Source of the DNA: Tannerella sp.
Lineage (GTDB): Bacteria > Bacteroidota > Bacteroidia > Bacteroidales > Tannerellaceae
Direction of reading: 5' to 3'
Length of the DNA: 35,123 nt
Assembly: GCA_031265585.1 (NCBI GenBank)
Contig: JAISCL010000067.1
Location: forward strand, 1-35,123
Part shown: positions 14,899 to 34,623 of the stretch, in pieces
Position numbering within the stretch: the first letter of the stretch is position 1
How the letters are laid out: each line of letters opens with the position of its first letter
Made by a program: the position numbers and the translations under genes
Notes under the pieces: model-generated
Told to the model about the DNA's origin: nothing
The model's database searches: none
Seen by the model: the letters and a program-made list of their open reading frames with translations, nothing else

Positions 14899-14921
14899 AC
14901 CACCTTCGCAAGGGACATAAA
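14899..14921 (+). promoter_or_regulatory. Leader hairpin copy 1 (GCAA loop)
   Basis: CCTTC-GCAA-GGG lies about 18 nt before ATG 14932 and is followed by the A-rich ACATAAAATAAAAAAG. The preceding 14686-14898 holds no convincing gene, only a CCCACAAATGGGG palindrome at 14746-14758. Confidence 0.5.
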
Positions 14922-14931
14922 ATAAAAAAGA

Positions 14932-15672
14932 ATGAAAAAGAATTTAATTATCAGAACGTTATTGGTGTCAGGATTGCTTTCGACTGTGATGACATACGGA
15001 CAGGTGATTTCTCTACCAAAAGAAATTGTTTACGGAGGCATGACGCTTCTCGACATAGATTTAAACCCGGACAAAGGAACCCGACAAAGGTTTGGGTTTT
15101 CATACGATCTGGGCATTCGTATCACAAAAGTTAGTTTTATATATTTAGGATTTATACATTCGGATGAAGATATGTTTGACCCTAAGTATGAAAATCCGTG
15201 CGGGACGTTTAAATATGTTTCTCGCGGGACGTTTTATGGTGACTATACGGTTCATGATGACGGGAAAGTATTTTACTCACACAGACGTAATGGTTTTTTA
15301 ATCGGCAGTCCTTTGGGAATATCATTAGGTAAAATAAGCGTATATGCAGGACCGTTATTTTCTATTGACCATTTTACGAGAGGGCATGTACATACACCGA
15401 AAAGTGTAGGAAATCCATGGGGAGCGCCGAGTTATGATGATAGTAAAATAAAAGTACCCGGAGATTATCCATACGAGACGCCCGTTCTTTTTGACGACGA
15501 CCCTGATACATTTAATAAAGGAAACAAAATTGCATTTGGTGTATTATCTGCATTAAGTTTCAGGTATGTACGACTAAATTACAGGTTTTTACATTACAAT
15601 ACACAATTGTACGGGGGCGAACGCAACACACATAACATAGGAATTTCCGTACAGTTATCTGCCAGAGAATAA
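14932..15672 (+). CDS. Exported beta-barrel-like protein, unknown role
   Basis: The 246-aa protein has a signal peptide (KKNLIIRTLLVSGLLSTVMTYGQ, cut near Q24). The mature chain has alternating beta-strand-like segments (LSALSFRYVRLNYRFLHYN, GISVQLSARE at the end) typical of small outer-membrane barrels. Family not recognised. It opens the long plus-strand array and carries leader hairpin copy 1 immediately upstream. The base composition is AT-richer than the preceding chimeric gene, and there is no Shine-Dalgarno. Confidence 0.6.
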   Translation: MKKNLIIRTLLVSGLLSTVMTYGQVISLPKEIVYGGMTLLDIDLNPDKGTRQRFGFSYDLGIRITKVSFIYLGFIHSDEDMFDPKYENPCGTFKYVSRGTFYGDYTVHDDGKVFYSHRRNGFLIGSPLGISLGKISVYAGPLFSIDHFTRGHVHTPKSVGNPWGAPSYDDSKIKVPGDYPYETPVLFDDDPDTFNKGNKIAFGVLSALSFRYVRLNYRFLHYNTQLYGGERNTHNIGISVQLSARE

Positions 15673-15777
15673 GAACATAAAAAACGACACATGCTTTAAG
15701 ATAATCCCGCACACAGCATAACCGAATATTTTACGAACCAGACAAACGATTGAATAATAACTTTAATAACAAAGCAA

Positions 15778-16404
15778 ATGAAACAGAAAACTGACAAGAC
15801 AAAAAAGGAAATGACACAAAGAATGTATTTCATTACCCTGCTGTCGAGAATCATCCTGACTTTGGTGCTAAGTGTACATGCGCAAACTGCCCCGATAGGC
15901 AAGACCGGCCTTTACTGGGAACTGAACGGCGACACGCTCGTCATTACCGGCGAGGGCAAAATGCCGGATTATTTCAGTGCTTACAGTGTATCGAAAGTAA
16001 GCGATGTGACGAATTATCGCCTTTATCTGCGATCACCCTGGTATTCCAGTCGGGAGAATATTTATACGGTGGATATACAAACCTCCGGTCCGACGACGAT
16101 TGGAAGCGATATTTTTGCAGGCTACCCGAATCTTGTCAGCGTCCATATACCAGCAAACGTGACGACGATTGAAAGGTATGCTTTTCACGTCTGCCCGAAT
16201 CTGAATGAAATCACGGTTCACTGGACGAATCCCTCGGTGTGTCGTGTCAGCAAGCCTGCATTTATGAAATCTACGTTTAAAAAATTGACTCCGGGTAATA
16301 TTACGCTGCGTGTTCCCGAAGGGACAGCTGTCAAGTATCAATCCCACTGCGCCTGGAAGAAATTCCGGATAACAGAGGAGGCGGAGAACACGGATAAAAT
16401 GTAA
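15778..16404 (+). CDS. Secreted BspA-type (LRR_5) protein
   Basis: The 208-aa protein has an N-terminal hydrophobic signal (FITLLSRIILTLVLSVHAQ). The motif GLYWELNGDTLVITGEGKMP then matches the N-cap found ahead of BspA-like repeats, including the one at 30691. One or two leucine-rich LRR_5 repeats follow (LVSVHIPANVTTIERYAFHV) and the usual end VPEGTAVKYQSHCAWKKF. Such proteins bind host proteins or partner surfaces. The frame opens at ATG 15778, but ATG 15811 or 15823 leaves a better signal peptide and turns the preceding A-rich bases into leader. REP copy 1 lies 40 bp after the stop. Confidence 0.7.
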   Translation: MKQKTDKTKKEMTQRMYFITLLSRIILTLVLSVHAQTAPIGKTGLYWELNGDTLVITGEGKMPDYFSAYSVSKVSDVTNYRLYLRSPWYSSRENIYTVDIQTSGPTTIGSDIFAGYPNLVSVHIPANVTTIERYAFHVCPNLNEITVHWTNPSVCRVSKPAFMKSTFKKLTPGNITLRVPEGTAVKYQSHCAWKKFRITEEAENTDKM

Positions 16405-16443
16405 GAATGAAAAGAATGAAAGTGCAGTTGTTGGGCGGTTGCG

Positions 16444-16471
16444 GTAGAGACGCGATGCATCGCGTCTCTAC
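16444..16471. repeat. REP palindrome copy 1
   Basis: GTAGAGACGCGATG followed by its exact reverse complement, 40 bp after the stop of the LRR gene. It is flanked on the left by the conserved GTGCAGTTGTTGGGCGGTTG and on the right by TTAGCCCGGCGCAGTC. Confidence 0.95.
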
Positions 16472-16531
16472 GATTAGCCCGGCGCAGTCGAGCGGAGGTA
16501 GAGAATATATATTTATAAATAAAAAAAGGAT

Positions 16532-17581
16532 ATGAAAGAAAGAATGTTAGCTGCTATTGCAGTAAGTATGAGTTTGTGGATGATTTTTGCGTGTTCGCAG
16601 AAATATCAGGGTGAATTGTTGCCGGTGCAGGACGAAAGTACAGGCAAATGGGGCTATACCGACACCATAGGGAAAAGCGTGATTGCGCCCAAATGGGACG
16701 TGGCCGGCATTTTCTCGGAAGGTCTGGCGGCGGTAGAAACAGATGGAAAATGGGGATTCATTAACAGAAACGGAATAGAATCCATTCCTGTGAAATATGA
16801 TGCCGCTTTTGCTTTTTCCGGCGAAAATGCTTTAGTGGCGCTGGATAGACAATGGGGGAAAATTGATAAAACAGGAAAGGTATTTCTGCCTTTGGAGTTT
16901 GATTCTATCGGAACATTTTCCGAGGGCCTGGCAAAAATAAATTCAAACGGAAAATGGGGATATATGGATACTGCCGGAAAAGAAGCCATTCCTGCGAAGT
17001 ATGATAAGGTCGAACCCTTTTCCGGAGGTTTGGCATCGGTCGAGTTGGATGATAAAGCGGGCGTGATAGATATCTCCGGAAAAGTAGTAGTCCCTTTTCA
17101 GTTTAAGGGATTACAAAAACTTATTGGCGTATGGTCGATGAAAAGAATATCGTTCCATACGGATCCTAACGATGTCGAGGAGATTAGCATGGCATTGGGA
17201 GTTCCGGATGAATCTTTAAACAAAGAAGATCACTTGCTATCCTTTCAGGAAGAAGGAATATTTCATTCCGGTATTGACATGTCGGACGGCAGTATTTTTA
17301 AAAACGGAAAAGCGACCGCTTTTAAGAAGAATAATAAATGGCAATGCGACAATTTTGTCAAGGGTGAATCGGGAAAGAATAATTTTATTTTTTCCTGTGA
17401 CCTCAAATTATCCCTCGAAAGCGAAGACCTTAATTACAAATTATTCCTCGAAACTGAGAACAGTCTCCGTATTGAAGTTTTTGAGAAAATCAAAAGAGAT
17501 CCATCTTCCGTTTCCGGTTATATGACGAAAGGCGGTATCGTGCCGATGCATCATACATTGACATTTATACGACAAAACTAA
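16532..17581 (+). CDS. WG-repeat lipoprotein with lipocalin-like C-terminus
   Basis: The 349-aa protein has a lipoprotein signal (MSLWMIFAC, likely acylated Cys21), then about five WG repeats (GKWGYTDTIGK, GKWGFINRNG, RQWGKIDKTG, GKWGYMDTAGK, DKAGVIDISGK). The region from about 195 starts LIGVWSMKRISF, like lipocalin-like domains, and ends LTFIRQN. WG-repeat proteins are surface-exposed and common in Bacteroidota; no activity is established. The start ATG at 16532 follows AAAAAAAGGAT. A two-hairpin 3' element begins about 15 bp after the stop. Confidence 0.75.
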   Translation: MKERMLAAIAVSMSLWMIFACSQKYQGELLPVQDESTGKWGYTDTIGKSVIAPKWDVAGIFSEGLAAVETDGKWGFINRNGIESIPVKYDAAFAFSGENALVALDRQWGKIDKTGKVFLPLEFDSIGTFSEGLAKINSNGKWGYMDTAGKEAIPAKYDKVEPFSGGLASVELDDKAGVIDISGKVVVPFQFKGLQKLIGVWSMKRISFHTDPNDVEEISMALGVPDESLNKEDHLLSFQEEGIFHSGIDMSDGSIFKNGKATAFKKNNKWQCDNFVKGESGKNNFIFSCDLKLSLESEDLNYKLFLETENSLRIEVFEKIKRDPSSVSGYMTKGGIVPMHHTLTFIRQN

Positions 17582-17649: not shown

Positions 17650-17684
17650 GCGTGGCACCGCCGACCACACAAAACTTCGGCGGG

Positions 17685-17737
17685 GCGGAACCTGAAAAGC
17701 CTTACGAGTAGGGAATAATTTAAAATGTAAAAGTATT
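17685..17737 (+). repeat. Leader related to the 30.6/32.6 kb leaders
   Basis: GGCGGAACCTGAAAAGCC, then GAGTAGGGAA and a TTAAAA-rich stretch up to the ATG resembles the leader before the genes at 30691 and 32623. Here the downstream gene has no signal peptide. Confidence 0.5.
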
Positions 17738-18079
17738 ATGGGATTATTTGATTTTTTAAACTCGAAATCCGCGATTGAAAAAGATAGAATAAGGACAGAC
17801 AAACAATTGCGTAAGCTCAGGAAGGAGATTGAGAAGAATAAGAAATTACTGGGCACTTTAGAGTGGGAGCATCATCCGGATGGCACACGCTATACAAAGC
17901 AGGACTGTGTCGCCTATGCATTTTTGTATTGTGTAAAAAAGCAATACGATCGTGGAGGGGAGAAATTTGATATGGATACCGCCAAATGGTTGCTTGATAC
18001 CTATTGCGGTGGTTCCGATACATATAACGGCCTCTTTTTGCTGAAATTCATGATGGCTTGCGCAAATGAGGGCAAATAG
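17738..18079 (+). CDS. Hypothetical cytoplasmic protein (113 aa)
   Basis: Begins MGLFDFLNSKSAIEKDRI, with a basic, possibly coiled-coil stretch (RKLRKEIEKNKKLLG, about 26-42), then a compact cysteine-containing helical region. It has no signal peptide or membrane helix. I do not recognise a family. The first twelve codons and the TATT before the ATG resemble those of the 40-aa ORF at 21285, so a shared start module is likely. It is followed 20 bp later by two-hairpin element copy 2 and then REP copy 2. Confidence 0.5.
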   Translation: MGLFDFLNSKSAIEKDRIRTDKQLRKLRKEIEKNKKLLGTLEWEHHPDGTRYTKQDCVAYAFLYCVKKQYDRGGEKFDMDTAKWLLDTYCGGSDTYNGLFLLKFMMACANEGK

Positions 18080-18099
18080 GATACAGGGAGGAGATTCCC

Positions 18100-18167
18100 C
18101 GCTCGGCGTAGCGTCTTCGTTGCGCCGGGTTAGAAGCAAGGCTCCGGCCTTGCAGAATCAGGGAACG
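18100..18167 (+). repeat. Two-hairpin 3' element, copy 2
   Basis: CGGCGTAGCG-TCTT-CGTTGCGCCG pairs over 10 bp with G-T pairs. A second hairpin, GCAAGGC-TCCG-GCCTTGC, follows. The element starts 20 bp after the stop at 18079. Confidence 0.75.
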
Positions 18168-18231
18168 GAATAATGGAGTTGAAAATTGAAAATGAAGACA
18201 AGGATGAAAGTGCAGTTGTTGGGCGGTTGCG

Positions 18232-18259
18232 GTAGAGACGCGATGCATCGCGTCTCTAC
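18232..18259. repeat. REP palindrome copy 2
   Basis: Perfect 28-bp palindrome with the same left flank (GTGCAGTTGTTGGGCGGTTG) and right flank (TTAGCCCGGCGCA) as copies 1 and 4. Confidence 0.95.
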
Positions 18260-18348
18260 AATTAGCCCGGCGCAATCCGGAGACTGCGCCGGACGGAAGA
18301 ATCCGAATAGATTTCAGTATATGGATAAAATAAAGAGATTAATTAACA

Positions 18349-18370
18349 GCTCCTTCGCAAGGAATGGAGC
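18349..18370 (+). promoter_or_regulatory. Leader hairpin copy 2 (GCAA loop, longest stem)
   Basis: GCTCCTTC-GCAA-GGA, a two-base bulge, then GGAGC, gives an 8-bp stem 17 nt before ATG 18388. It is followed by ATAAAACAGACAAAAAA. Confidence 0.6.
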
Positions 18371-18387
18371 ATAAAACAGACAAAAAA

Positions 18388-19047
18388 ATGAACAGAATGA
18401 ATTTAAGAAAAAAAGCAGTGAGATTGACCGTTGTGTCGATGATTTATGCAATGCCGGCGCTATGTGCGTACGGGCAGGATGTATCGGAAACAGCGGAAGT
18501 AACAGCCGCACCGGAACCAGTAGAAACAATAGAAACATCGGAAGCGGCGGCAACCGTCGTAAGCGCTGTTTCGGACGTTTCGGAACTTGAAACAATGCTT
18601 GCGTTTGAGGAGTTTAACTTTTATGACGCGGCCTTCACGCAAACCGGCGCGCCGGCGTATCGCAGGAAAAGCCCTTTCCTGGCATGGTTCCTGTCATGGC
18701 TCTATCCCGGTATCGGACAGTTCTATAACGGCCAGGCCGGAAAAGGCATTGCAATGACGGCGGTTGCTACGGGAGGGTTTGGACTGTGTATTGCCGCCGT
18801 TCAAAAGGAGGACGACAATCTGGGCGCCATCGGGGCGCTCGTTCTTACCGGCGTTGCCCTGTGGTCGATGATAGACGCTCCCGTTTCGGCCGGCAAAATC
18901 AATCGCAGGAATACGGCCCTGACGTGGGATGTTGGCAATGGCGCACAGCTCAACTTGCGTCCGACCCTCTCGTACGAAAATCCGCTGAAAGGGGTGCAGT
19001 CGGGCAGGGAACTGCGTAGTGGCCTGTCGCTCAGGGTGGACTTCTGA
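18388..19047 (+). CDS. Exported TM2/DUF5683-like membrane protein
   Basis: The 219-aa protein starts MNRMNLRKKAVRL (an upstream in-frame ATG at 18364 lies inside the leader hairpin zone). The signal peptide ends near AYGQ30. After an acidic Thr/Ala/Glu linker, residues about 94-170 contain RRKSPFLAWFLSWLYPGIGQ, then FYNGQ and further hydrophobic helices. This is the pattern of TM2/DUF5683-type small membrane domains. The function of those domains is unknown. The leader and signal peptide are nearly identical to those of the BspA/PEGA-like gene at 28020, although the mature proteins are unrelated. Confidence 0.65.
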   Translation: MNRMNLRKKAVRLTVVSMIYAMPALCAYGQDVSETAEVTAAPEPVETIETSEAAATVVSAVSDVSELETMLAFEEFNFYDAAFTQTGAPAYRRKSPFLAWFLSWLYPGIGQFYNGQAGKGIAMTAVATGGFGLCIAAVQKEDDNLGAIGALVLTGVALWSMIDAPVSAGKINRRNTALTWDVGNGAQLNLRPTLSYENPLKGVQSGRELRSGLSLRVDF

Positions 19048-19168: not shown

Positions 19169-19230
19169 TGGCGGATATCAGTGACTTTATAAAGTCAATG
19201 AGATGCCATTCAAATAATTAATGTAAAACC

Positions 19231-19242
19231 GCCCGAAAGGGC
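19231..19242 (+). promoter_or_regulatory. Leader hairpin copy 3 (GAAA tetraloop)
   Basis: GCCC-GAAA-GGGC, a GNRA-type loop closed by four G-C pairs, 15 nt before ATG 19258. Confidence 0.6.
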
Positions 19243-19257
19243 ATAAAGAGAAAAGAA

Positions 19258-19920
19258 ATGAAAATAAAGTTGTTAAAAAACAGAATTGTATTACTGGCTA
19301 TCGTAACGGTTGCCGCAGTAGGGAATGTATGGTCGCAAACAGTTTCAAGCGAAGATGCCCGCAAAACCCGGTGGGGTATCAAGGGCGGGATTAATATTGC
19401 GACGGTCGATATTGAAAGCGAGAACGAGATTGTTCCGCTGGAATCTGTCACCGGAGCAGTGGCAGGCGTAACGCTTGATCATTCAATTACACCCTACCTG
19501 TTTTTCCATTCGGGACTTGAAATCAGTATGAAAGGCTTTGGGATAAATTCCGACAGCGGTTCTACGCTCACATCTACGGCGGTCTATCTGCAACTTCCGG
19601 CAGCAATAGGTTGTAAGTTCAACATCGGCAGGGGATGGAAGATAGGGCTGCGCATGGGATTTTACCTTGCCCAGGGAATTGCAGGCAATACCTCGGCTAC
19701 CGTTTCAGGAGAATCCGACAGCGTAAGCACTTTTGGCGACAAAATCCTTAATCCTTTCGACGCGGGCATGTTGATTGGCAGTTCCTTCCAGAAGGGAAAA
19801 GTCGTTATCGGGACACAAATCGAACTGGGCCTTACCGAAACGAACGGCGACAATTTCAAGGTTACGGGAGCAAAGGCGCATAGCAGCAATGTTTCGATTG
19901 CGGCAGGGTTTGTATTTTAG
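19258..19920 (+). CDS. Outer-membrane beta-barrel protein (OMP_b-brl type), copy A
   Basis: The 220-aa protein has a signal peptide ending at VWSQ (about residue 27). The barrel domain then has TRWGIKGGINIATVDIESEN, TPYLFFHSGLEISMKGFG, YLQLPAAIGCKFNIGRGWKI and a final strand VSIAAGFVF that ends in Phe, the usual barrel terminus. It is a member of the small OmpX/PorT-like barrel families of Bacteroidota. A paralogue with high identity lies at 24303, and both keep the same promoter, leader hairpin and signal peptide. Differences concentrate in loops, as expected if loops face selection. Confidence 0.85.
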   Translation: MKIKLLKNRIVLLAIVTVAAVGNVWSQTVSSEDARKTRWGIKGGINIATVDIESENEIVPLESVTGAVAGVTLDHSITPYLFFHSGLEISMKGFGINSDSGSTLTSTAVYLQLPAAIGCKFNIGRGWKIGLRMGFYLAQGIAGNTSATVSGESDSVSTFGDKILNPFDAGMLIGSSFQKGKVVIGTQIELGLTETNGDNFKVTGAKAHSSNVSIAAGFVF

Positions 19921-20016: not shown

Positions 20017-21006
20017 ATGAACAAAAAATTATCAATTCTCGTATTAATAAGCATCGCCACGATGATGTTTACCGGATGTAACTCCAAAAATGCGGAAACA
20101 CATTCCCGGAGTGAAAATGCAGGCGCAAACGACGTTCCATCAAGTATTACTCAAAAAGCAAAAGAGAGCGGTAAAAGCTCAATAGGGAGTGAAAATGTCA
20201 GCACAAACGACGTTCAATCAAGCATTACTGAAAAAGCAAAAGAGAGCGGTAACGGCATGATAGATCTTATCAGATCGTGGGGAGAGAAGATCGCTGCATC
20301 CAATAAGAACGTGGAGGTATATTCTTTACCGCTTTTGCCACAGACCAAAACCTGTATGACAATACCCGTAGTTTTTCATCGGGATGATCCGGTTGCGAAT
20401 ATGCGCGATTTTATTGAAGTAGTCAATGAAATCAGTGAGCAAATATTTATAAAGCCTAAATTGGAAGACAAAATGATGGGTATTTTTTTGGGCTTTGCTC
20501 CTGATGGAGAGGCGGTCTGCGGACTGTCCATGTATCCGCAGGAACAGGTATTTTCACTGGAAGGAATTGATTTTACATCGGAAAAGGCCGCTGTTTACCG
20601 TCAAGCATTTAATACATTAGTGAAGAATAAAACGGGGAAAACGAACATTTGCGAATGGGATTGTTTTATTTTCAGGTCCATGAAACCATCAAAAATTGAA
20701 GATCTTTCGGATATGGGCGAACGGACTGTTACAGGCGTTGCAGGCACCACCATTATCTCGCTTTACAAGCTTGAAAGCGGGATTGCGAATCTTCTTCTGT
20801 CAAATAAAAATATGTTGGAACAAATTTTTTCCGCATCTTCAGAAAGTAACGACAGTAAAGCTATTATGAAAACAGGATTTCCTGTCAGCACTGTCTGGTT
20901 TGACGGTTCCGGCAAACGTATTATGGCAGAAATGGCAAGGCAACTTCCTGATGGCAAAATCAGGAAAGAACGGAAATGGTATAACGGTTATTCCATGCCC
21001 CAATGA
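20017..21006 (+). CDS. Lipoprotein of unknown function (329 aa)
   Basis: A lipoprotein signal with lipobox FTGC (Cys21) is followed by a linker containing a tandem duplication: SENAGANDVPSSITQKAKES, then a second copy SENVSTNDVQSSITEKAKES. The remaining 240 residues form a mixed alpha/beta domain with no motif I recognise (VVFHRDDPVANMRDFIEVVN, GIFLGFAPDGEAVCGLS). It is exported and probably tethered to the outer membrane. The two-hairpin element copy 3 starts 28 bp after the stop. It sits between an outer-membrane barrel and the TIR gene, but functional linkage is not shown. Confidence 0.65.
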   Translation: MNKKLSILVLISIATMMFTGCNSKNAETHSRSENAGANDVPSSITQKAKESGKSSIGSENVSTNDVQSSITEKAKESGNGMIDLIRSWGEKIAASNKNVEVYSLPLLPQTKTCMTIPVVFHRDDPVANMRDFIEVVNEISEQIFIKPKLEDKMMGIFLGFAPDGEAVCGLSMYPQEQVFSLEGIDFTSEKAAVYRQAFNTLVKNKTGKTNICEWDCFIFRSMKPSKIEDLSDMGERTVTGVAGTTIISLYKLESGIANLLLSNKNMLEQIFSASSESNDSKAIMKTGFPVSTVWFDGSGKRIMAEMARQLPDGKIRKERKWYNGYSMPQ

Positions 21007-25909: not shown

Positions 25910-25924
25910 ACAAAATAAGAAAGA

Positions 25925-26767: not shown

Positions 26768-26805
26768 GATTCAAAATTAAAAACGGATAAATAACAGTAT
26801 GAACC

Positions 26806-26822: not shown

Positions 26823-26839
26823 ATAAAACAAAGAACAAA

Positions 26840-27289: not shown

Positions 27290-27297
27290 TATTAACC

Positions 27298-27320
27298 GCC
27301 CCTCTCTCTTGCGGGGGAGC
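27298..27320 (+). promoter_or_regulatory. Leader hairpin copy 8 (longer loop)
   Basis: CCCC (27299-27302) can pair with GGGG within 27313-27317 around a pyrimidine-rich loop. The usual AGCACAAAAACAG tail follows, 17 nt before ATG 27338. Confidence 0.4.
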
Positions 27321-27337
27321 ACAAAAACAGAAGCAAA

Positions 27338-27882: not shown

Positions 27883-27910
27883 GTAGAGACGCGATGCATC
27901 GCGTCTCTAC
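27883..27910. repeat. REP palindrome copy 4
   Basis: Perfect 28-bp palindrome. The left flank carries an extra GACGCT compared with copies 1 and 2, as in copy 7. The right flank TTAGCCCGGCGCAGTCCGG is shared with copies 1 and 2. Confidence 0.95.
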
Positions 27911-27986
27911 GATTAGCCCGGCGCAGTCCGGAGACCGCGTAGAATGGGGAATTTCAGTGCATGGATAAAATAAAGATATTAAAACC

Positions 27987-28002
27987 GCTTCCGCAAGGGA
28001 GC
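27987..28002 (+). promoter_or_regulatory. Leader hairpin copy 9 (GCAA loop)
   Basis: GCTTCC-GCAA-GGGAGC gives six pairs including one G-T, 17 nt before ATG 28020. The tail is ACAAAACAGACAGAGAA. Confidence 0.6.
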
Positions 28003-28019
28003 ACAAAACAGACAGAGAA

Positions 28020-28850
28020 ATGAACAGAATGAATGTAAGAAAAGCAGTAATGAGATGGACTGTCGTGTCGATGGTTTATGCAATGGTAGCGCTGAGCGCG
28101 TACGGGCAGGAGATTGGCGGAGAGATGACGTCCGAGGTGAAGTGGCGTATTGAGGGTGAAACGCTGTATATAAGCGGGAAAGGGGTGGTGCCGACTACTA
28201 TGTTTGGACAGCAGTCGCCCTGGTACCCGTACCGTTCACAGTTCCATGCGGTAGTGATCGAAGAAGGCATCACGGAGGCAGGTAAATATTTGTTTAACGG
28301 CTACAAAAACATTACCTCCCTGACGGTTGCAGGAAGTGTCGATGTCCTTGGCAGCTATTCGTTTTCCGGCTGCTCCAGGCTCGCGACGGTAGAAGTCAAA
28401 AGCGCTCTGCCGCCAGGTATCAACATCGCTACATTTTACCGGTCGAAAACCAAAAAGGCGAAACTCATTGTGCCGAAAGGGTGCATAGCCGAATATAAGG
28501 ATACGTCTTACTGGAAGAAATTCGGCGCTGTGGAAGAAAGTGATCAGGTGGCAACGGATGCGGAGGACATCGAAAAGAAGATTGACGCGCCATGCACCGT
28601 TCGCCTGTACCGGGAGCCGCGTTTTAGCGGAGGATCGGCCACGTTGCGCGTCTATCTGAACGGTGCGGAGCAGGAAAAGCTGGAGAACGGAGCAACCATT
28701 GAAATGAAAACCGACCGGCTGAAAAACAGAATTGACATCAAATGGCTCAAATCGGATCTGGGATACTTCCGTTTTGACGCCCTGCCGGGAGGTGAAATTC
28801 AAATTAACTATTCGGCTGCTACGGGAAGTTTTAAAATTATGGAGGAGTGA
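28020..28850 (+). CDS. BspA-type LRR protein with C-terminal PEGA-like domain
   Basis: The 276-aa protein has a signal peptide MNRMNVRKAVMRWTVVSMVY ending near AYGQ, nearly the same as that of the gene at 18388. Residues about 35-165 are BspA-like: EVKWRIEGETLYISGKGVVP, an LRR_5 repeat with ITSLTVAGSVDVLGSYSFSG, and the closing VPKGCIAEYKDTSYWKKFG. Residues about 190-276 are the same beta domain as in the 25000 gene (APCTVRLYREPRF, LRVYLNGAEQEKLENG, FDALPGGEIQINY). A surface role is inferred. A two-hairpin element begins only 4 bp after the stop. Confidence 0.7.
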   Translation: MNRMNVRKAVMRWTVVSMVYAMVALSAYGQEIGGEMTSEVKWRIEGETLYISGKGVVPTTMFGQQSPWYPYRSQFHAVVIEEGITEAGKYLFNGYKNITSLTVAGSVDVLGSYSFSGCSRLATVEVKSALPPGINIATFYRSKTKKAKLIVPKGCIAEYKDTSYWKKFGAVEESDQVATDAEDIEKKIDAPCTVRLYREPRFSGGSATLRVYLNGAEQEKLENGATIEMKTDRLKNRIDIKWLKSDLGYFRFDALPGGEIQINYSAATGSFKIMEE

Positions 28851-28901: not shown

Positions 28902-29234
28902 ATGAGCTTTTCGGGTGATATTAAAAAGCTGGCCGGATTCAAATATGTGACTACCGGCGACGGGAAAAAGTATGACGTGGACGATTTGGTTCTATTGATT
29001 ACAAATTCGCGCGATAAAAAGGAAATCGGGATGGCCGTAACCCTGTTCCTTGCTGTCGCCAAGGTGTCTTTGAAAAAAGGTAAGGAGAAAGAAGCGCAGG
29101 CTCTCATGGCAGGAATTATGCACCTTGTAAGCAAGCGGAATGATGATGTGTTCAACCTGGAAGATGTCCGGGAACTGATTGTTAATGCGGACTTGAAAGA
29201 TGCTGCCGATAAAATATCCGGCACACCGTTATGA
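28902..29234 (+). CDS. Hypothetical cytoplasmic helical protein (110 aa)
   Basis: Begins MSFSGDIKKLAGFKYVTTGD, with no signal peptide. The chain is largely alpha-helical with amphipathic stretches (GMAVTLFLAVAKVSLKKGKE, AQALMAGIMHLVSKRNDDVF). No family is recognised. It is one of the few soluble, unexported products in the array, along with the gene at 17738. The distance from the element copy 5 remnant to its ATG is 11 bp. Confidence 0.5.
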   Translation: MSFSGDIKKLAGFKYVTTGDGKKYDVDDLVLLITNSRDKKEIGMAVTLFLAVAKVSLKKGKEKEAQALMAGIMHLVSKRNDDVFNLEDVRELIVNADLKDAADKISGTPL

Positions 29235-29325: not shown

Positions 29326-29541
29326 ATGAAAACGTATTTAAGAATTTATGTGGTAACATTCATTTGTGCAGCGCTGGGATATTTCTGCGGACAGGATGCA
29401 GGCGGTGAATGGGCGACCCGCGGATCAGCCGTCGACCCTGCGATGCTGCCTGAAAAGCAGGATACCGGGCGCGGTTCAGGTAGAGACGCGATGCATCGCG
29501 TCTCTACAAAAAAAAACAGGGCAAGACCTGCGAAGCCATAA
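29326..29541 (+). pseudogene. 5' remnant of a WG-type lipoprotein gene cut at REP copy 5
   Basis: The start YVVTFICAALGYFCGQDAGG matches the signal and first residues of the WG lipoprotein at 33461 (YAIVFICAALGYSCEQNANS). The WG domain never arrives. After about 50 residues the frame runs through REP copy 5 (GRDAMHRVST) and stops in the next gene's leader. It looks like a signal-peptide module separated from its body at the palindrome. Confidence 0.7.
29480..29507. repeat. REP palindrome copy 5
   Basis: Perfect 28-bp palindrome immediately followed by A9 and the leader shared with copy 6. Confidence 0.95.
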
Positions 29542-29580
29542 GAGCAGGAATAATTGAAAATTGAAAAGTATATGAAAAAG
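29508..29580 (+). repeat. Shared leader after REP copies 5 and 6, first copy
   Basis: CAGGGCAAGACCTGCGAAGC and the following AAGAGCAGGAA...ATTGAAAATTGAAAA recur at 33397-33468 with very few changes. The next gene differs (WK-repeat lipoprotein here, WG lipoprotein there). CCTGC and GCAGG can pair. Confidence 0.8.
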
Positions 29581-30606
29581 AAAAATTCAAATTATGTAAA
29601 ACAGGCGCTTGCGGCAATGGTTTGCTGCTTTGCGATGATGACTTCATGCGGTGACAAAGAGGAAGATACCGGGAAAGAAGATGTGGCGGTGTATGTTTGC
29701 GGCGCTGAAATAGATCCTGAAGATAGAGAGGACGGGGATATGAAAGCGGTGCTGTGGAAAGACGGCAAAAAACAGTTTCTTCAGCCTTCCGCAGGGAAAA
29801 CAAGTTCAGTAGCCAGTTCTGTTTTTATATCCGGAAACGGTGATATCTATGTTGCCGGCTCCGAGTATGACGAGGAGAGCGATGACAACGCCGTTTTGTG
29901 GAAGAATGGCGTCGTGCAGCCCCTTCCCAGAAGCGGTTCCGACGCTGGGGCATACTCTGTTTTCGTATCGGGAAATGATGTCTATGTATCCGGATATGAT
30001 GACGAATGGGATGACGAACGGGATGATACGTATGCAGTTTTATGGAAAAACGGCAAGGAACAGTTCCTTACGGATGGAAGCAATTTCGCGGCAGGCTTTT
30101 CGGTTTTTGTATCGGGAAATGATGTGTATGTTGCAGGGTGGGAAGAGCAGGTAAGTGATTATCATGCTGTGCTTTGGAAAAACGGCGTTGCTCAATACCT
30201 GACCGACAGAAAGGATGGTTCCGTAGCCAATTCTGTTTACGTATCGGGAAAGGATGTGTATGTTGCCGGAAGTGAAGGAAACTATGCTGTGCTTTGGAAA
30301 AACGGCGTTCCGCAAAAACTTACTGACGGCAGAGAAGCACTTGCAGCTTCGGTACGCGTTGCAGGCAATGATGTCTATGTATCCGGAAGGGACGGCGGCG
30401 ATCATGCGGTTTTATGGAAAAACGGCATTCCACAAACCCTTTCCGGCACCGAAGATTTTGCAGTAGCCTCTTCCGTCTTTGTTTCAGGGAACGATGTTTA
30501 TGTCTCAGGCTTCGTATCAGATGGGGGAAAGTTGTGGAAAAATGGCGAAGAGCAAACCCTTTCCGGCGCACAAAACTCTATTGCAATATCTGTTTTTGTT
30601 AAGTGA
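29572..30606 (+). CDS. Lipoprotein with seven WK-type repeats (beta-propeller-like)
   Basis: The 344-aa lipoprotein starts at ATG 29572 (MKKKNSNYVKQ; the upstream ATG 29554 lies in the leader), with lipobox MTSC. The rest is seven repeats of about 40-45 residues, each with a VFVSGNDVYVSG strand pair and a LWKNG turn (LWKDGKKQFL, LWKNGVVQPL, LWKNGKEQFL and so on). Repeats of this kind fold into beta-propellers, and seven matches a common blade number. No catalytic motif is seen. Near-identical repeats at the DNA level suggest recent expansion. It should be exported and possibly surface-exposed. Confidence 0.7.
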   Translation: MKKKNSNYVKQALAAMVCCFAMMTSCGDKEEDTGKEDVAVYVCGAEIDPEDREDGDMKAVLWKDGKKQFLQPSAGKTSSVASSVFISGNGDIYVAGSEYDEESDDNAVLWKNGVVQPLPRSGSDAGAYSVFVSGNDVYVSGYDDEWDDERDDTYAVLWKNGKEQFLTDGSNFAAGFSVFVSGNDVYVAGWEEQVSDYHAVLWKNGVAQYLTDRKDGSVANSVYVSGKDVYVAGSEGNYAVLWKNGVPQKLTDGREALAASVRVAGNDVYVSGRDGGDHAVLWKNGIPQTLSGTEDFAVASSVFVSGNDVYVSGFVSDGGKLWKNGEEQTLSGAQNSIAISVFVK

Positions 30607-30629
30607 TACGAAATAAACAGCTACAAAAT

Positions 30630-30823
30630 ACGGCGGAACCGAAAAGCCGGATAAAAGAGTAGGGAACAAATATTTAAAACAAAGAAGTATATGAAAAAGA
30701 TGAACTGTAAAAATGAAAAGAGCGCCCTCGGCGGCGCGCTGAAACGCCTGGGAATGGTATGTCTGCTTATATGGGGCGTATGGTGTATGGCAGGTTGCGA
30801 CAAGGATGACGATGACCTGGAGG
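30630..30823 (+). repeat. Shared leader plus lipoprotein signal module, copy A
   Basis: About 190 bp of leader and signal-peptide coding sequence recur at 32562-32753 with roughly seven differences. After the signal the two proteins have nothing in common. Confidence 0.9.
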
Positions 30824-32289
30824 AAGAAACGGAGACGGGTTTCACACAGAGCGGAACAGCGGGAAGCCTTACATGGTCGCTCTCCGGCGGAAAGCTGACC
30901 ATCAGCGGAAACGGGGCAATACCGGATTACGGTTATGAAGAGTCTCCCTGGTACAGTTTCTGGGAACATATTACCGCCGTCATTATCGGAAAGGGCGTGA
31001 CAACGATTGGAGGGAATGCTTTTCTGAATTGCCGCAGCCTGACATCCGTGACCATTCCCAACAGTGTGACAACGATTGAATACGGTGCTTTTTACAATTG
31101 CAGCAGTCTGACGTCCGTGACCATTCCCAATAGCGTGACAGCGATTGCAGAGTCTGTTTTTGCCAGTTGCCGCAGTCTGACATCCGTGACCATACCTAAC
31201 AGTGTGACAGCAATTGGAGAGCGGGCTTTTTCCTATTGCTACAGCCTGACGTCCGTGACCATACCTAACAGTGTGAAAAGGATTGGAGAGTGGGCTTTTT
31301 CCGGTTGCAGTAGCCTGACATCCGTGATCATTCCCAACAGCGTGACAACTATTGAATACGGTGCTTTTTCCGGTTGTAGCAGCCTGACGTCCGTGACCAT
31401 TCCCAACAGCGTGACAGCGATTGGAGATGGACCTTTTTCCGGTTGCAGCAGCCTGATTGCCATTAAGGTGGAGAATGGGAGTTCCTGGTCTTCCATTAAC
31501 GGTATTTTATTCAATAAAGCCGGGACTGTTCTGATTCAATATCCGGGAGGAAAATCCGGGCATTATAACATTCCCAACAGCGTGACAGTGATTGGAGGGG
31601 CTGCTTTTGACGGTTGCAGCAGCCTGACGTCCGTGACCGTTCCCAACAGCGTGACAACGATTGGAGGGGGTGCTTTTTCCTATTGCAGCAGCCTGACGTC
31701 CGTGACCCTTCCCAACAGCGTGACAACGATTGGAGGGTTTGCTTTTTCAGATTGCAGCAGCCTGACATCCGTGACCCTTCCCAACAGCGTGACAACTATT
31801 GAGTACGATGCTTTTCACGGTTGCAGCAGCCTGACGTCCGTGACCATTCCCAACAGCGTGACAACGATTGGATGGTCTGCTTTTTACCGTTGCAGCAGCC
31901 TGACGTCCGTGACCATTCCCAACAGCGTGACAACGATTGAATGGTCTGCTTTTGCCGGTTGCAGCAGCCTGACGTCCGTGACCATTCCCAACAGCGTGAC
32001 AACTATTGCAAGCAGTACTTTTGCCAGTTGCAGCAGCCTGACGTCCGTGATCATTCCCAACAGCGTGACAACTATTGAATACGGTGCTTTTTACAATTGC
32101 AGCAGCCTGATGGATGTGACCGTTGAATGGGAAGAGCCGCTTTTTTTCATTGTAAGCACTGCGTTTGACCGTGTACCGCTGTCTTCCTGTACCCTGCACG
32201 TTCCTGACGGCACGAAAGCCCTCTACCAGAAGGCCGCTGTCTGGGAGGAGTTCGGAAACATTTTTGAAGATGCGGAGGGATGGGAATGA
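30691..32289 (+). CDS. BspA-like leucine-rich repeat lipoprotein (frameshifted before T9SS tail)
   Basis: The 532-aa product has a lipoprotein signal with lipobox CMAGC (Cys36). An N-cap (SLTWSLSGGKLTISGNGAIP) and about 15 LRR_5 repeats of 23 residues follow (SLTSVTIPNSVTTIEYGAF). Repeat 7 is interrupted by a 20-residue insertion beginning IKVENGSSW. The usual closing VPDGTKALYQKAAVWEEFGN comes next. The frame stops at 32287, but a T9SS sorting domain continues in another frame at 32280. One missing G in the run at 32282-32284 explains the break. BspA-like proteins bind fibronectin or other cells and are surface-exposed. A lipoprotein signal combined with a T9SS tail is unusual. Confidence 0.85.
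   Translation: MKKMNCKNEKSALGGALKRLGMVCLLIWGVWCMAGCDKDDDDLEEETETGFTQSGTAGSLTWSLSGGKLTISGNGAIPDYGYEESPWYSFWEHITAVIIGKGVTTIGGNAFLNCRSLTSVTIPNSVTTIEYGAFYNCSSLTSVTIPNSVTAIAESVFASCRSLTSVTIPNSVTAIGERAFSYCYSLTSVTIPNSVKRIGEWAFSGCSSLTSVIIPNSVTTIEYGAFSGCSSLTSVTIPNSVTAIGDGPFSGCSSLIAIKVENGSSWSSINGILFNKAGTVLIQYPGGKSGHYNIPNSVTVIGGAAFDGCSSLTSVTVPNSVTTIGGGAFSYCSSLTSVTLPNSVTTIGGFAFSDCSSLTSVTLPNSVTTIEYDAFHGCSSLTSVTIPNSVTTIGWSAFYRCSSLTSVTIPNSVTTIEWSAFAGCSSLTSVTIPNSVTTIASSTFASCSSLTSVIIPNSVTTIEYGAFYNCSSLMDVTVEWEEPLFFIVSTAFDRVPLSSCTLHVPDGTKALYQKAAVWEEFGNIFEDAEGWE
30985..32110. repeat. 69-bp coding tandem repeat (LRR array)
   Basis: About 15 units at 69-bp spacing, many nearly identical (CATTCCCAACAGCGTGACAA recurs). 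Repeat number may vary between strains. Confidence 0.9.
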
Positions 32290-32504
32290 TCCCGACGGCA
32301 GAGATGCAAGTTCGTATTTACGGCCATCTGTTATCCGTTGACAGTCCCGCCGCCGAACAGATTGCGATCTATTCCGCCGGCGGACAGTTGCTGTACCGTG
32401 TGCAGAAGCCGGCCGGTCAGGCTGCGTTCGAGTGGAACAGTTTGTCGCGCGGCGTGCTGATTGTCCGCGGTAGCAGCAGATGGATGGAGAAAGTCGTGAA
32501 GTGA
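32280..32504 (+). pseudogene. T9SS C-terminal sorting domain detached by a frameshift
   Basis: QVRIYGHLLSVDSPAAEQIA, IYSAGGQLLYRVQKPAG and SRGVLIVRGSSRWMEKVVK are the three conserved blocks of a type A T9SS sorting domain, which directs export through the Por secretion system. It overlaps the last 10 bp of the LRR gene in the +2 frame and has no signal of its own, so it is the broken tail of that protein, not a separate gene. Adding one G at 32282-32284 would give one 600-aa product. Confidence 0.85.
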
Positions 32505-32561
32505 AAACCGTTCGGACTTCCATCCTGAGAATCCTTTAATCAAGTAAATCAAGGTCAAAAA

Positions 32562-32753
32562 ACGGCGGAACCGAAAAGTCGGATAAGAGAGTAGGGGACA
32601 AATATTTAAAACAAAGAAGTATATGAAAAAGATGAACTGTAAAAATGAAAAGAGCGCCCATGGCGGCGCGCTGAAACGCCTGGGAATGGCATGTCTGCTT
32701 ATATGGGGCGTATGGTGTATGGCAGGTTGCGACAAGGATGACGACAACCTGCT
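32562..32753 (+). repeat. Shared leader plus lipoprotein signal module, copy B
   Basis: Second copy of the module at 30630, from GGCGGAACCGAAAAG to the first residues after the lipidated cysteine. Confidence 0.9.
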
Positions 32754-33054
32754 GGGAAAAACGGGAACGGTCACATACGACGGCAACACGTATACCGTCA
32801 GTGTGGAAGAAATCGGAAAAGACTCGCAGGGGTACACTTATGTCACACTGACGGGCGTGCCGGCGCTGATGAACATCCAGGGCGGGAATGTAAGCCCGGT
32901 GATCAATGCAAAAATCACGGTGGGCGGTTCCACCTTCGAAGCGAACAAATTCTCTTTCGTGACAGGAGGCATGACGTATTATTTTCCGACCAAAAAAGAC
33001 CCGGAAAAAATCACCCTCTACAGCGGTAAAGGCTCCACCCTTCTTGTATTCTGA
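32623..33054 (+). CDS. Small lipoprotein, beta-rich, sharing its signal with the LRR protein
   Basis: The 143-aa lipoprotein has a signal MKKMNCKNEKSAHGGALKRL with lipobox CMAGC, nearly identical to that of the LRR gene 2 kb upstream. The mature part is unrelated: a beta-rich domain of about 105 residues (GTVTYDGNTYTVSVEEIGKD, INAKITVGGSTFEANKFSFV, YYFPTKKDPEKITLYSGKGS). Family not recognised. It is probably an outer-membrane or surface lipoprotein. Confidence 0.7.
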   Translation: MKKMNCKNEKSAHGGALKRLGMACLLIWGVWCMAGCDKDDDNLLGKTGTVTYDGNTYTVSVEEIGKDSQGYTYVTLTGVPALMNIQGGNVSPVINAKITVGGSTFEANKFSFVTGGMTYYFPTKKDPEKITLYSGKGSTLLVF

Positions 33055-33080: not shown

Positions 33081-33311
33081 ATGAAGAAAAAGAGTATAGG
33101 AAAAAAGGCGCTTGGTGTTTTTTTAATACTTGTGGTAATGGCAGTGGGCATTGCCCTGGCTGTATGGTTTACGAAGCTTTACATCAACAGCGGTGCACGT
33201 GCTGTAATATTCTACGGATGGATACCGATACCGTTTATTGCGCTTCCGGCTTTACTGCCGCCCATCTTCGCATTGTGTGTCGCGTCTTCAATCAGGGAAA
33301 GATTTTTTTGA
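33081..33311 (+). CDS. Small two-helix membrane protein (76 aa)
   Basis: MKKKSIGKKALG, followed by a helix at about 12-33 (VFLILVVMAVGIALAVWFT), a short loop with NSGARA, and a second hydrophobic segment at about 44-68 (GWIPIPFIALPALLPPIFAL), ending RERFF. AGGAAAGGAGGAAAGAA, 10 nt upstream, is one of the few strong Shine-Dalgarno-like sequences here. No family is recognised. Two-hairpin element copy 6 starts 27 bp after the stop. Confidence 0.6.
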   Translation: MKKKSIGKKALGVFLILVVMAVGIALAVWFTKLYINSGARAVIFYGWIPIPFIALPALLPPIFALCVASSIRERFF

Positions 33312-33337: not shown

Positions 33338-33367
33338 CCGCTCGGCGTAGCGTCTTCGTTGCGATGC
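33338..33367 (+). repeat. Two-hairpin 3' element, copy 6 (fused to REP copy 6)
   Basis: CGCTCGGCGTAGCGTCTTCG runs directly into the palindrome at 33369. The second hairpin is missing, as if replaced. Confidence 0.65.
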
Positions 33368-33368
33368 C

Positions 33369-33396
33369 GTAGAGACGCGATGCATCGCGTCTCTAC
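33369..33396. repeat. REP palindrome copy 6
   Basis: Perfect 28-bp palindrome between element copy 6 and the leader at 33397. Confidence 0.95.
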
Positions 33397-33468
33397 AAAA
33401 AAAAACAGGGCAAGACCTGCGAAGCCATAAGAGCAGGAAGAATTGAAAATTGAAAAGGATATGAAAAA
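33397..33468 (+). repeat. Shared leader after REP copies 5 and 6, second copy
   Basis: Near-identical to 29508-29580, here ahead of the WG lipoprotein gene. Confidence 0.8.
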
Positions 33469-34078
33469 AGTAAAGTTTAGAAATGGAAGATGCACATCAG
33501 TCAGCATTATTTATGCAATAGTGTTTATTTGTGCAGCGCTGGGATATTCCTGCGAACAGAACGCAAACAGTGAATGGAAATGGGTTGAAGGGCCTGCGTC
33601 CGGAAAAGCAAAAACCGACAATTCGGAAAAACTGATCCCTAAAGAGGAAGACGGCAAATGGGGTTATGTCAATCAGGCCGGCGAATGGGTGGTTCCTCCG
33701 CAGTTTTCAGTAGCCGAAGAGTTTTCGTTCGGGGTTGGCAAGGCGATTCTCGTGTATCCGTATCCGGTCTTTTTTGATGTACATGGCATTGAAATAATCA
33801 AAACCTCATTCAAGATTAGCGGGATGTTTGGAGGAAATATGACCATTACCGGCGTAAACGGATATGAATGTAAGGGTATCAAACTGGAAGACATCGGCAA
33901 TTTTTCGGAAGGATACCTCACTGCACGTTCCGGTGGCAAATGGGGGTATCTCCACAGAACCGGAAGCTGGGCTGTTAAACCCCAGTTCGAAAAAGCCGGC
34001 GACTTCAGGAACGGCGTCGCAAAAGTAAAACTGGGAGACAGGGAGGGATATATTGTTTTGAAAATGGAAAGGTGGTAA
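33461..34078 (+). CDS. WG-repeat lipoprotein (short)
   Basis: The 205-aa protein starts at ATG 33461 (MKKVKFRNGRC), with ATG 33443 lying in the shared leader. The lipoprotein-type signal ends LGYSCEQ. Two clear WG units follow (DGKWGYVNQAGEWVVPPQFS, GGKWGYLHRTGSWAVKPQFE), with a diverged unit between. The last, GDREGYIVLKMERW, ends abruptly. It is shorter than the WG protein at 16532 and has no lipocalin-like tail. Its signal matches the orphan 5' fragment at 29326. Confidence 0.75.
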   Translation: MKKVKFRNGRCTSVSIIYAIVFICAALGYSCEQNANSEWKWVEGPASGKAKTDNSEKLIPKEEDGKWGYVNQAGEWVVPPQFSVAEEFSFGVGKAILVYPYPVFFDVHGIEIIKTSFKISGMFGGNMTITGVNGYECKGIKLEDIGNFSEGYLTARSGGKWGYLHRTGSWAVKPQFEKAGDFRNGVAKVKLGDREGYIVLKMERW

Positions 34079-34133
34079 TAGGTTAAAAAGGAAGATATGG
34101 ATGAAAGTGCAGTTGTTGGGCTGTTGCGACGCT

Positions 34134-34161
34134 GTAGAGACGCGATGCATCGCGTCTCTAC
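34134..34161. repeat. REP palindrome copy 7
   Basis: Perfect 28-bp palindrome, 55 bp after the WG-gene stop, with the left flank GTGCAGTTGTTGGGCTGTTG. A further GTGGAAACGCGG-like remnant lies just downstream (about 34170-34185). Confidence 0.95.
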
Positions 34162-34272
34162 AATACACGGCGCACCGCGTTTCCACAATAACAACGGTTA
34201 TGGGATGCAATGCAGCGGCAATACAAAAATCGCACTGGTAACGAATTAGATAATATAAAAATATAGGGCAGG

Positions 34273-34623
34273 ATGGCAGACAAATTTAAAAACACATACC
34301 GCATACCGCCGGCGCGGTGGCAGGACTGGGATTACGGGTCAAACGCCGCGTATTTCGTAACCGTCTGCACCGCACACCGCGAACGGTTTTTCGGGGAAAT
34401 CAGCGATGGCAGGATGCGCCTGTCCGAAACCGGAAAAACCGTACAGGTCGAATGGCTGAAAACGCCTGGGTTACGACCCGATATGAATATCATGTTGGGC
34501 GAATACGTGGTTATGCCTAATCATTTTCATGGGATTATCGTGATTAGTGAAAACCGGTATAATGTGAAGGGGGGCGGCGTAGAGACGCGATGCATCGCGT
34601 CTCTACAAATGAAAAAAAATTAA
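34273..34623 (+). pseudogene. RAYT transposase truncated at REP copy 8
   Basis: The 116-aa frame begins MADKFKNTYRIPPARWQDWD and contains AAYFVTVCTAHRERFFGEIS and the HUH motif in MPNHFHGIIVI. This is the REP-associated tyrosine transposase (Y1) family that processes single-stranded REP hairpins. About 100 residues in, the sequence passes into REP copy 8 and stops. The helix carrying the catalytic Tyr is missing, so the protein is probably inactive. The break at one of its presumed substrate palindromes is notable. Confidence 0.8.
34579..34606. repeat. REP palindrome copy 8
   Basis: Perfect 28-bp palindrome inside the 3' end of the RAYT frame; it supplies the residues VETRCIASLQ and the stop soon after. 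Confidence 0.95.

Follow-up and report, generated by a model that had tools for sequence, protein, structure and literature searches.

The array and its genomic setting

The DNA considered here (the window, 35,123 nt) corresponds to an entire contig, C79, of the 4.88 Mb draft genome of a Tannerella sp. (383 contigs, estimated contamination of 3.72%); metagenome bins carrying this name are presumably of termite-gut origin. Its right-hand part harbors an array of 22 open reading frames (ORFs), designated A1 to A22, that extends from position 14932 to 34078 and reaches the contig end. Comparison with available genomes of the genus (41, that of the window, G000, included) suggests a surface-protein island whose genes may exchange a limited set of repeated start and tail modules. 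A second, smaller array, with part of the same head, was found on contig C192 of the same genome.

The sequence-only reading of this locus had proposed some 22 same-strand genes, mostly encoding exported or membrane proteins, and both proposals were confirmed. All 22 ORFs are on the + strand, whereas strands are mixed in control stretches of the same genome. A simple hydropathy rule detected an N-terminal hydrophobic segment in 17 of them, and A8 and A11 display internal hydrophobic stretches. Most of the protein bodies were also said to be unrelated, which holds, with some exceptions. BLASTP analyses revealed related bodies among the leucine-rich repeat (LRR) proteins A2, A14 and A18, the WG-repeat proteins A3 and A22, and the outer-membrane barrels A6 and A9, together with a domain common to A10 and A14 and 19 similar residues located right after the shared start of A18 and A20. 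Based on their sequence, A17, A18 and A20 are predicted surface lipoproteins with a lipoprotein export signal: their cysteine is followed by a K-(D/E)2-type motif (C-GDKEED, C-DKDDDD and C-DKDDDN, respectively), corresponding to the consensus given after the lipid-bearing cysteine in the consulted part of PMC5080379.

On its left side, the array adjoins a block of galactose genes (galK-MFS-galM-10245-11464) that is conserved in six close congeners (G035, G008, G007, G013, G006 and G032). In these six, tblastn searches covering about 2 to 30 kb past the block found no HU, glucosaminidase or array gene next to it; at the remaining congener loci, the block was incomplete or the contig ended. Homology with the sister species G006 stops at about position 12705, close to a relict copy of the repetitive extragenic palindromic (REP) sequence described below. 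The array is a lineage-specific island, composed mostly of putative surface-protein genes, beside a conserved galactose-gene block.

Shared starts, leaders and tails

The 24 gene junctions between positions 14685 and 34634 include 23 with a spacer. These spacers were cut with 30 nt of the next gene and compared by requiring a partner at E<=1e-5, with 42 spacers, drawn from six stretches of this genome, as controls (one further control spacer, 700 nt or longer, was dropped). Once the palindrome was masked, 16 of the 23 array spacers had a partner (17 pairs) versus none of the 42 controls, and no pair occurred in any of 60 random masked control sets; unmasked, the figures were 17/23 (36 pairs) versus 4/42. 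The sharing of array flanks is real and much stronger than in control stretches. The proposal that flanks are drawn from a small set of shared parts was supported to this extent, but neither the palindrome nor the DUF805-type leaders are special to the array. A recurring order of gene, 3' hairpins, palindrome, leader hairpin and gene, also proposed from the sequence, did not hold up: as we read the spacers, it is complete in two of the 23 (A4-A5 and A10-A11), the others having subsets of it or none.

Many array genes are preceded by leaders, which are of three types (Table 1). Two of these correspond to the Rfam RNA families DUF805b (RF02914) and DUF805 (RF03081), which are often found in the genus directly upstream of coding regions of many gene kinds, a position also occupied in the array. 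These leaders differ from the described families in that a REP replaces the first DUF805 hairpin at A17 and A22, and in that leader types vary among related bodies. The Rfam cut-off is passed by a single array leader (the DUF805b match at 30630-30665), with four others matching below it, while a DUF805 copy outside the array, on contig C170, reaches 60.6 bits (cut-off 51.1). The array accounts for three of the seven DUF805b and three of the eight DUF805 matches of its own genome. The third type, composed of AACC, a GC hairpin and AYAAAA, had no Rfam match at E<=1. Two models of this leader were built from 11 sequences, including five array leaders and that of C192. The first, which had a shifted structure, gave eight array matches in the window, of which three (A1, A5 and A13) were non-training sequences, and one match outside at E 0.89. 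The corrected model matched 15 of the 41 genomes at E<=0.05; its six matches in the genome of the window (five in the array and one in C192) are all training sequences. Tails consist of one or two hairpins plus TTGAAAAT repeats and occur at the ends of several genes. By sequence, the parts of the array are mostly of known kinds (the REP, its transposase and the DUF805 and DUF805b RNAs), the AACC hairpin being the one with no Rfam counterpart.

In spacers, the motif TANNTTTG, which we take to be promoter-like, occurs at the array head and then only before A6 and A9; with a total of eight sites in 20.4 kb, it is not above its level in genes. No plus-strand terminator-like site was listed in spacers upon scanning positions 15000-34700. 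The array may thus be transcribed for the most part as a single unit in which many genes have a leader in front of them. A single phase-variation operon was considered on these same grounds (two sites in the array spacers with no excess over genes, and no plus-strand spacer terminator listed) and set aside as conjecture.

Whether starts follow the body or the genome was examined with 48 array-type genes from 11 genomes, A8, A16 and A19 being left out. Body homology was defined by BLASTP from residue 36, and the DNA from -60 to +84 was locally aligned, values of at least 60 being regarded as strong. Among pairs with unrelated bodies, strong starts were found in 15 of 206 pairs from the same genome (five in G022, four in G028, three in the genome of the window, two in G016 and one in G037) and in 10 of 851 pairs from different genomes. 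In non-array controls (188 genes from eight genomes), the corresponding numbers were 1/2,781 within and 0/14,751 between genomes. Upon shuffling of the genome labels, the observed mean was reached in seven of 3000 trials, the mean of the upstream 60 nt in 18/3000 and the strong-pair count in 0/3000; without the genome of the window (29 genes left), both means were reached in none of 3000. Over the upstream 60 nt, genes from different genomes scored 18.3 with homologous bodies versus 19.0 with unrelated ones, the latter being the baseline. This pattern suggests that the leader and early codons follow the genome more than the body.

Individual pairs illustrate the extent of these modules. In the window, the starts of A18 and A20 are 93% identical over -67 to +147, those of A17 and A22 98% from -92, where the REP begins, to +7, and those of A5 and A14 81% over -189/-175 to +91. 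Related situations were found in G016 (A14 and A5 starts, 79%, up to +91), in G028 (the A13-type gene and a gene X, 94% over -63 to +13, and another pair up to +6) and in G037 (the A13-type gene and its neighbor, 95% over -36 to +21), while four G022 genes on two contigs have a common GC-rich leader of their own. On the right, module edges are spread between +6 and +147 nt past the start codon; on the left, some coincide with the beginning of the leader or lie close to it. The shared part comprises the leader and the signal in A18/A20 and A5/A14, and the leader only in A17/A22. Related bodies may in turn carry unlike leaders. Genes of the A17 type display a DUF805 leader with a REP in the window, an AACC hairpin in G018 (recognized by sequence, below the model threshold) and a DUF805 leader in G026; those of the A5 type have a DUF805b leader in G018 (40.0 bits) and an AACC hairpin in G016 and, weakly, in the window, neither being seen in G019.

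Gene order, palindromes and neighboring elements

Several array families were found elsewhere in the genus, either singly or in other company: A7 in G031, A10 in G008, A11 in G018, and A13 in G018, G028 and G037. Adjacencies occurring elsewhere, namely A14-A5 in G019 and G016, A5-A17 in G018 and A15-A9 in C192, have no equivalent in the window, nor is the proximity of A14 and a WG gene in G022 kept there. Gene order is not fixed between species. The sequence-only reading had named a fixed order and flanks common genome-wide as outcomes that would speak against it; order proved variable, but the REP is dispersed and DUF805-type leaders occur elsewhere in the genome.

The place of the second array was looked at in 10 congener loci. 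Both flanks were present in four of these, which have a 167-bp gap (G007) or two other genes (G004, G006 and G039) at this place; in the other six, one of the two flanks lay off the available sequence. On C192, a frame-shifted homolog of A9 (87% identical) is directly followed by the sequence that comes after A10 in the window (96%), and no A10 was found after this homolog. The join reads TTGAGTTGAAA-GTTGAAAATG and falls inside a repeated TTGAAA tail. In its simplest reading, the A10 unit would have been gained or lost via recombination between short direct repeats, other histories being possible.

The palindrome GTAGAGACGCGATGCATCGCGTCTCTAC has a palindromic stem bounded by GTAG and CTAC. The consulted parts of PMC3733652 and PMC6006769 describe such double-foot palindromes for a subclass of REP-associated tyrosine transposases (RAYTs) abundant in Cyanobacteria and Bacteroidetes, in which the transposase gene itself contains a REP past its HuH motif. 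The array palindrome shares its ends and its many dispersed copies with the REPs of RAYT subclass 2.4; by sequence, it is a GTAG double-foot REP, probably of this kind. It differs in that several array REPs were copied along with flanking sequence and in that the only RAYT match found in the genome lacks its C-terminal part. This truncated RAYT retains an NHFH motif, with a REP (34579-34606) after the HuH motif, while the part with the tyrosine is gone. No second RAYT match was found in the genome of the window at E<=0.01; congener matches have open frames of 147-248 aa in 10 of 11 cases. Up to three mismatches, the REP occurs at 98 places in the genome (0 for the reversed control), and the array contains eight copies versus 0.40 expected from the genome-wide density, a 20-fold excess over the genome mean.

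Flanks were viewed for 53 of the 98 copies (eight in the array and 45 outside). The outside copies were located between ORFs in 40 cases and inside ORFs of at least 100 aa in five; the leader-slot flank of the array was found at one of them (C192), and the repeat left of the REP at 29480 at four (C97, C119, C158 and C244). It seems that REPs have replaced hairpins that were already there. The slot occupied by a REP in the window (16435-16476) holds another hairpin-like stretch, AGGCAGGAGTCCTGCTTT, in C192 (locus L102, ca. 1626-1645), and the first DUF805 hairpin, native in most congener RNAs inspected and in the C170 and C221 copies of the same genome, is replaced by a REP at A17 and A22. The idea that the first hairpin of Rfam DUF805 is itself a double-foot REP was dropped, as 29 matches from congeners and from the genome of the window mostly read AATGG...CCATT with a non-palindromic loop.

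Other small elements accompany the REPs. The dispersed repeat of about 66 nt at 29414-29479 (also in loci L173, L178, L184 and L191) is attached to REPs on five or more contigs, that of the window included, and in both orientations; it is perhaps a REP-linked miniature element. Stretches resembling TATACTGTGYGCGG adjoin several REP copies (L172, L179, L186, L196 and L201) and perhaps represent a separate miniature element. By eye, window positions 3263-3420 resemble the N-terminal fragment of a second RAYT-type transposase, with no Pfam or NCBIfam match.

Around the array, parts of the head leader match many other loci across the genus. The leader type at 13179-13346, a small ORF with an (AG)n tract, is found again in many genomes of the genus (L154, L162, L164-L169 and L171), and in L165, L166, L167 and L169 it sits upstream of receptor genes that we take, from their sequence, to be SusC/RagA-like. 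It looks like a slipped-strand, phase-variable leader. Frames at 12752-13046 resemble what we assume to be the C-terminal remnant of a PD-(D/E)XK-tailed ATPase family, and four overlapping copies with 22-bp spacing and cores like AACGGATAGCTATC lie directly 3' of the HU-HIG gene (13974-14083). At the other end, the radical SAM gene has a homolog in G028 (L364, contig C5, 1390-4449) next to a gene for a WD40-repeat protein, with an A13-type gene nearby, and the array may continue past the contig end into a similar set.

For the TIR-domain protein A8, no counterpart was found in named genomes. The second array contains a gene for a protein of 1,501 aa (L102, 1731-6236) with DUF4062, AAA/NPHP3_N-like and WD40 matches. 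PADLOC gave weak matches for A8 and none for the 1,501-aa protein. These two proteins are hints that the arrays may also carry conflict-type genes.

Table 1. Features of the window (array genes with their leaders, tails and palindromes, and adjacent elements).
Feature	Position	Strand	Remarks
Degenerate REP copy	12727..12752	.	near left edge of non-syntenic stretch
Array head	13073..13346	+	two TANNTTTG promoter-like sites (13073, 13160), small leader ORF, (AG)n tract ~13272-13316
HU-HIG DNA-binding protein gene	13499..13975	+	Pfam PF18291, E 9.9e-29
Glucosaminidase-type gene, internally shortened	14176..14685	+	own-genome homologs of 445 and 454 aa
A1, exported by sequence	14932..15672	+	hairpin leader 14894-14926
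A2, LRR_5 protein	15778..16404	+	Pfam scan
REP	16444..16471	.	
A3, WG-repeat protein, lipoprotein-like start	16532..17581	+	
DUF805b-like leader of A4	17682..17714	+	RF02914, 29.1 bits, below cut-off 35.6
A4, no signal found	17738..18079	+	
Two-hairpin 3' element with TTGAAAATTGAAAAT tail	18097..18196	+	related: 17595-17650, 21033-21131, 25552-25652, 28853-28890, 33338-33363 (partial)
REP	18232..18259	.	
Hairpin leader of A5	18341..18380	+	weak match to leader model (16.8 bits, E 0.097)
A5, weak TM2/DUF5683-like	18364..19047	+	start module common to A14; start 18388 used for start comparisons
Hairpin leader of A6	19223..19252	+	
A6, outer-membrane barrel	19258..19920	+	
A7, lipoprotein-like	20017..21006	+	
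A8, membrane protein with TIR domain	21410..24076	+	PF13676, E 1.2e-10
Hairpin leader of A9	24268..24297	+	
A9, outer-membrane barrel, A6 paralog	24303..24965	+	
A10 unit	24969..25638	+	gene 25000-25536 plus 3' element; flanked by TTGAGTTGAAAA copies (24969-24980, 25627-25638)
REP	25699..25726	.	1 mismatch
Hairpin leader of A11	25889..25919	+	
A11, membrane protein	25925..26767	+	
Hairpin leader of A12	26798..26832	+	
A12, exported by sequence	26840..27289	+	
Hairpin leader of A13	27290..27331	+	
A13, DUF2846-like (below cut-off)	27338..27838	+	N-terminal hydrophobic segment
REP	27883..27910	.	
Hairpin leader of A14	27979..28012	+	
A14, LRR_5 protein	28020..28850	+	start module common to A5 (-175 to +91)
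A15, no signal found	28902..29234	+	homolog precedes A9 homolog in C192
A16, N-terminal remnant	29326..29413	+	like A22 signal region
Dispersed repeat joined to REP	29414..29479	.	88-90% similar stretches (37-69 nt) beside REPs on C97, C119, C158, C244
DUF805-type leader of A17, including REP	29475..29554	+	RF03081, 39.3 bits, below cut-off 51.1
REP	29480-29507		in place of first hairpin of A17 leader
A17, lipoprotein by sequence	29572..30606	+	K-(D/E)-type motif after cysteine
DUF805b leader and signal module of A18	30624..30838	+	93% identical to 32556-32770; RF02914, 46.5 bits at 30630-30665, above cut-off 35.6
A18, BspA-type LRR lipoprotein	30691..32289	+	
A19, small ORF	32280..32504	+	overlaps A18 end
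DUF805b leader and signal module of A20	32556..32770	+	RF02914, 31.4 bits at 32562, below cut-off
A20, lipoprotein by sequence	32623..33054	+	body unlike A18 beyond shared start
A21, membrane protein	33081..33311	+	
DUF805-type leader of A22, including REP	33364..33443	+	RF03081, 38.0 bits, below 51.1; 98% identical to A17 leader over 100 nt
REP	33369-33396		in place of first hairpin of A22 leader
A22, WG-repeat protein	33443..34078	+	start 33461 used for start comparisons
REP	34134..34161	.	
Truncated RAYT	34273..34623	+	NF047646, E 1e-5, below cut-off
Radical SAM gene, cut by contig end	34634..35122	+	homolog near A13-type gene in G028

Proposed recombination between repeated modules and its alternatives

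We favor, with a probability of about 0.65, the view of a surface-protein island in which repeated start and tail modules undergo homologous recombination or gene conversion and the gene set is thereby remodelled. The start module would consist of a short RNA leader, the start codon and early codons, in places with the signal peptide, and would be transferable. Unrelated bodies would share starts because such exchange copies them from gene to gene, and it would likewise add, remove and reorder gene units. The leaders may serve translation or mRNA stability, possibly within a long transcript, and selection would act on surface variation, with the REP riding along as a dispersed RAYT-type element. 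Sequence comparison itself provides modules common to unrelated bodies, leaders that track the genome rather more than the body, a changed order, absence of the array at the place corresponding to it in sister species, and a gene unit whose presence differs at a tail join; from these we infer the agency of general recombination.

Several points weigh against this view. Exchange was never caught happening, reassortment resting on species comparison, and some shared starts could be old duplications with diverged bodies. Forty of the 41 genomes are multi-contig drafts, several of the contigs used being short, and the 48 genes are not a random sample, since congener loci were found via similarity to the array or its leaders. 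Strong pairs are also interdependent, five of the 15 coming from four G022 genes. DUF805-type leaders precede genes outside arrays, as well as genes without a signal. The AACC examples of G018, G016 and G019 were part of the model training and that of G018 was missed at E 0.05; pairing in the AACC hairpin is weakly supported, with shuffles scoring as high in 36/500 (cells paired) and 81/500 (covariation), and covariation was dropped as a proof of this hairpin. The C192 tail also matches the A4-A5 spacer (18173-18261, 92%), so that the join need not mean a loss of A10. Finally, the first 28 residues are more alike between homologous bodies of different genomes than between unrelated ones, in a comparison where two family pairs were mislabelled and the A2 start was wrong. 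Signal peptides still partly track their body, and free signal-body shuffling is too strong a claim. The reassortment of signals and bodies put forward in the sequence-only reading is thus best retained, at the level of species comparison, for leaders and partly for export signals.

Among alternative mechanisms, a site-specific cassette or phase-variation system, either integron-like or of the Xer type known from Mycoplasma vpma genes, would involve a recombinase encoded elsewhere that acts on a leader site and thereby brings different genes behind an expressed start. The (AG)n tract in the head leader, whose parts recur over the genus, and the presence of only two promoter-like TANNTTTG sites in array spacers are in line with such a system. 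So is the layout, which resembles that of the vpma and vsp loci: according to the consulted part of PMC2268961, the Mycoplasma vsp, vpma and vsa families have conserved 5' untranslated and signal-coding regions followed by differing coding regions, with recombination within -72 to -1. These families are the nearest functional parallel found, by analogy, since the array is also a cluster of surface genes with a shared 5' untranslated and signal region and differing bodies (A18/A20 and A5/A14). In contrast to them, its bodies belong to several unrelated families, and its leaders are of several types that are partly genome-specific. Genes are all co-oriented, which leaves inversion switching no inverted copies to act on here; moreover, no inverted gene or constant site was found in the array, and no recombinase, tyrosine recombinases included, occurred among the 30 window proteins scanned for Pfam families. 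For a recombinase located elsewhere in the genome, the variable module edges and the three unlike leader types, with no common core site seen, argue against a single site, and we consider such a system improbable. As for integrons, array genes are likewise co-oriented, small, mostly unrelated and bordered by repeated flanks, but the spacer comparison, with no attC model run, revealed no constant attC-like ends, and the type and extent of the flanks vary. No integrase was found among the same 30 proteins, attI not having been searched for. With module edges ranging so widely, and with REP-free genomes (G016 and G018) also reordered, the integron comparison made in the sequence-only reading was rejected as a mechanism.

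A role of the REPs themselves, with RAYT activity moving or joining flanking gene parts, would fit their density in the array, the position of a REP at the left end of the leader block common to A17 and A22 (98% identical), the dispersed repeat behind the A16 remnant that lies beside REPs on four other contigs, the REPs occupying the site of another hairpin in related copies, and the relict REP close to the island edge. However, few of the outside copies viewed share a flank with the array, as described above, and the search for RAYTs in this genome gave a single, truncated match. Remodelling can do without REPs, since G016 and G018 (no copy) and G019 (one copy) show like patterns, namely a changed order in all three and shared or swapped starts in G016 and G018; the REP as a necessary shuffling site was rejected on this basis, and a RAYT-driven remodelling has little probability. 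Plain duplication and divergence, in which tandem copies of a few ancestral exported genes would have kept their starts through selection on leaders, agrees with the related bodies (A6/A9, A2/A14/A18 and A3/A22) and with two leader types falling in described RNA families. It is improbable, for starts that are 93-98% identical precede bodies without detectable similarity (A18/A20 and A17/A22), and homologous bodies carry unlike leaders across species. That metagenome bins have joined different loci at repeats is conceivable for a contaminated draft of 383 contigs, but very improbable: shared starts were found in four other genomes (G016, G022, G028 and G037), order is changed in G016, G018 and G019, and the repeats are mostly short or imperfect. 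A bolder version of module exchange is that every genome of this Tannerella-like group has a start module of its own at a given time and actively transfers copies of it to unrelated surface genes at several loci, the leader RNA or a hairpin-recognizing enzyme targeting the copying. We regard this as rather unlikely; if true, a genome-wide homogenizing process would supply incoming genes with functional signals for translation initiation and export.

Under the favored view of recombination between repeated start and tail modules, the array would represent a measurable case, in Bacteroidota, in which leaders, and in part export signals, can be exchanged as modules between unrelated proteins, leader sequences tracking the genome and bodies their families. 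It would place two Rfam RNA families in the context of high-turnover surface genes and make it possible to study how signals and bodies reassort where no dedicated recombinase is involved. Bacteroidota generally rely little on Shine-Dalgarno pairing. If confirmed in strains, this exchange would help explain how newly acquired genes get expressed and exported in these bacteria.

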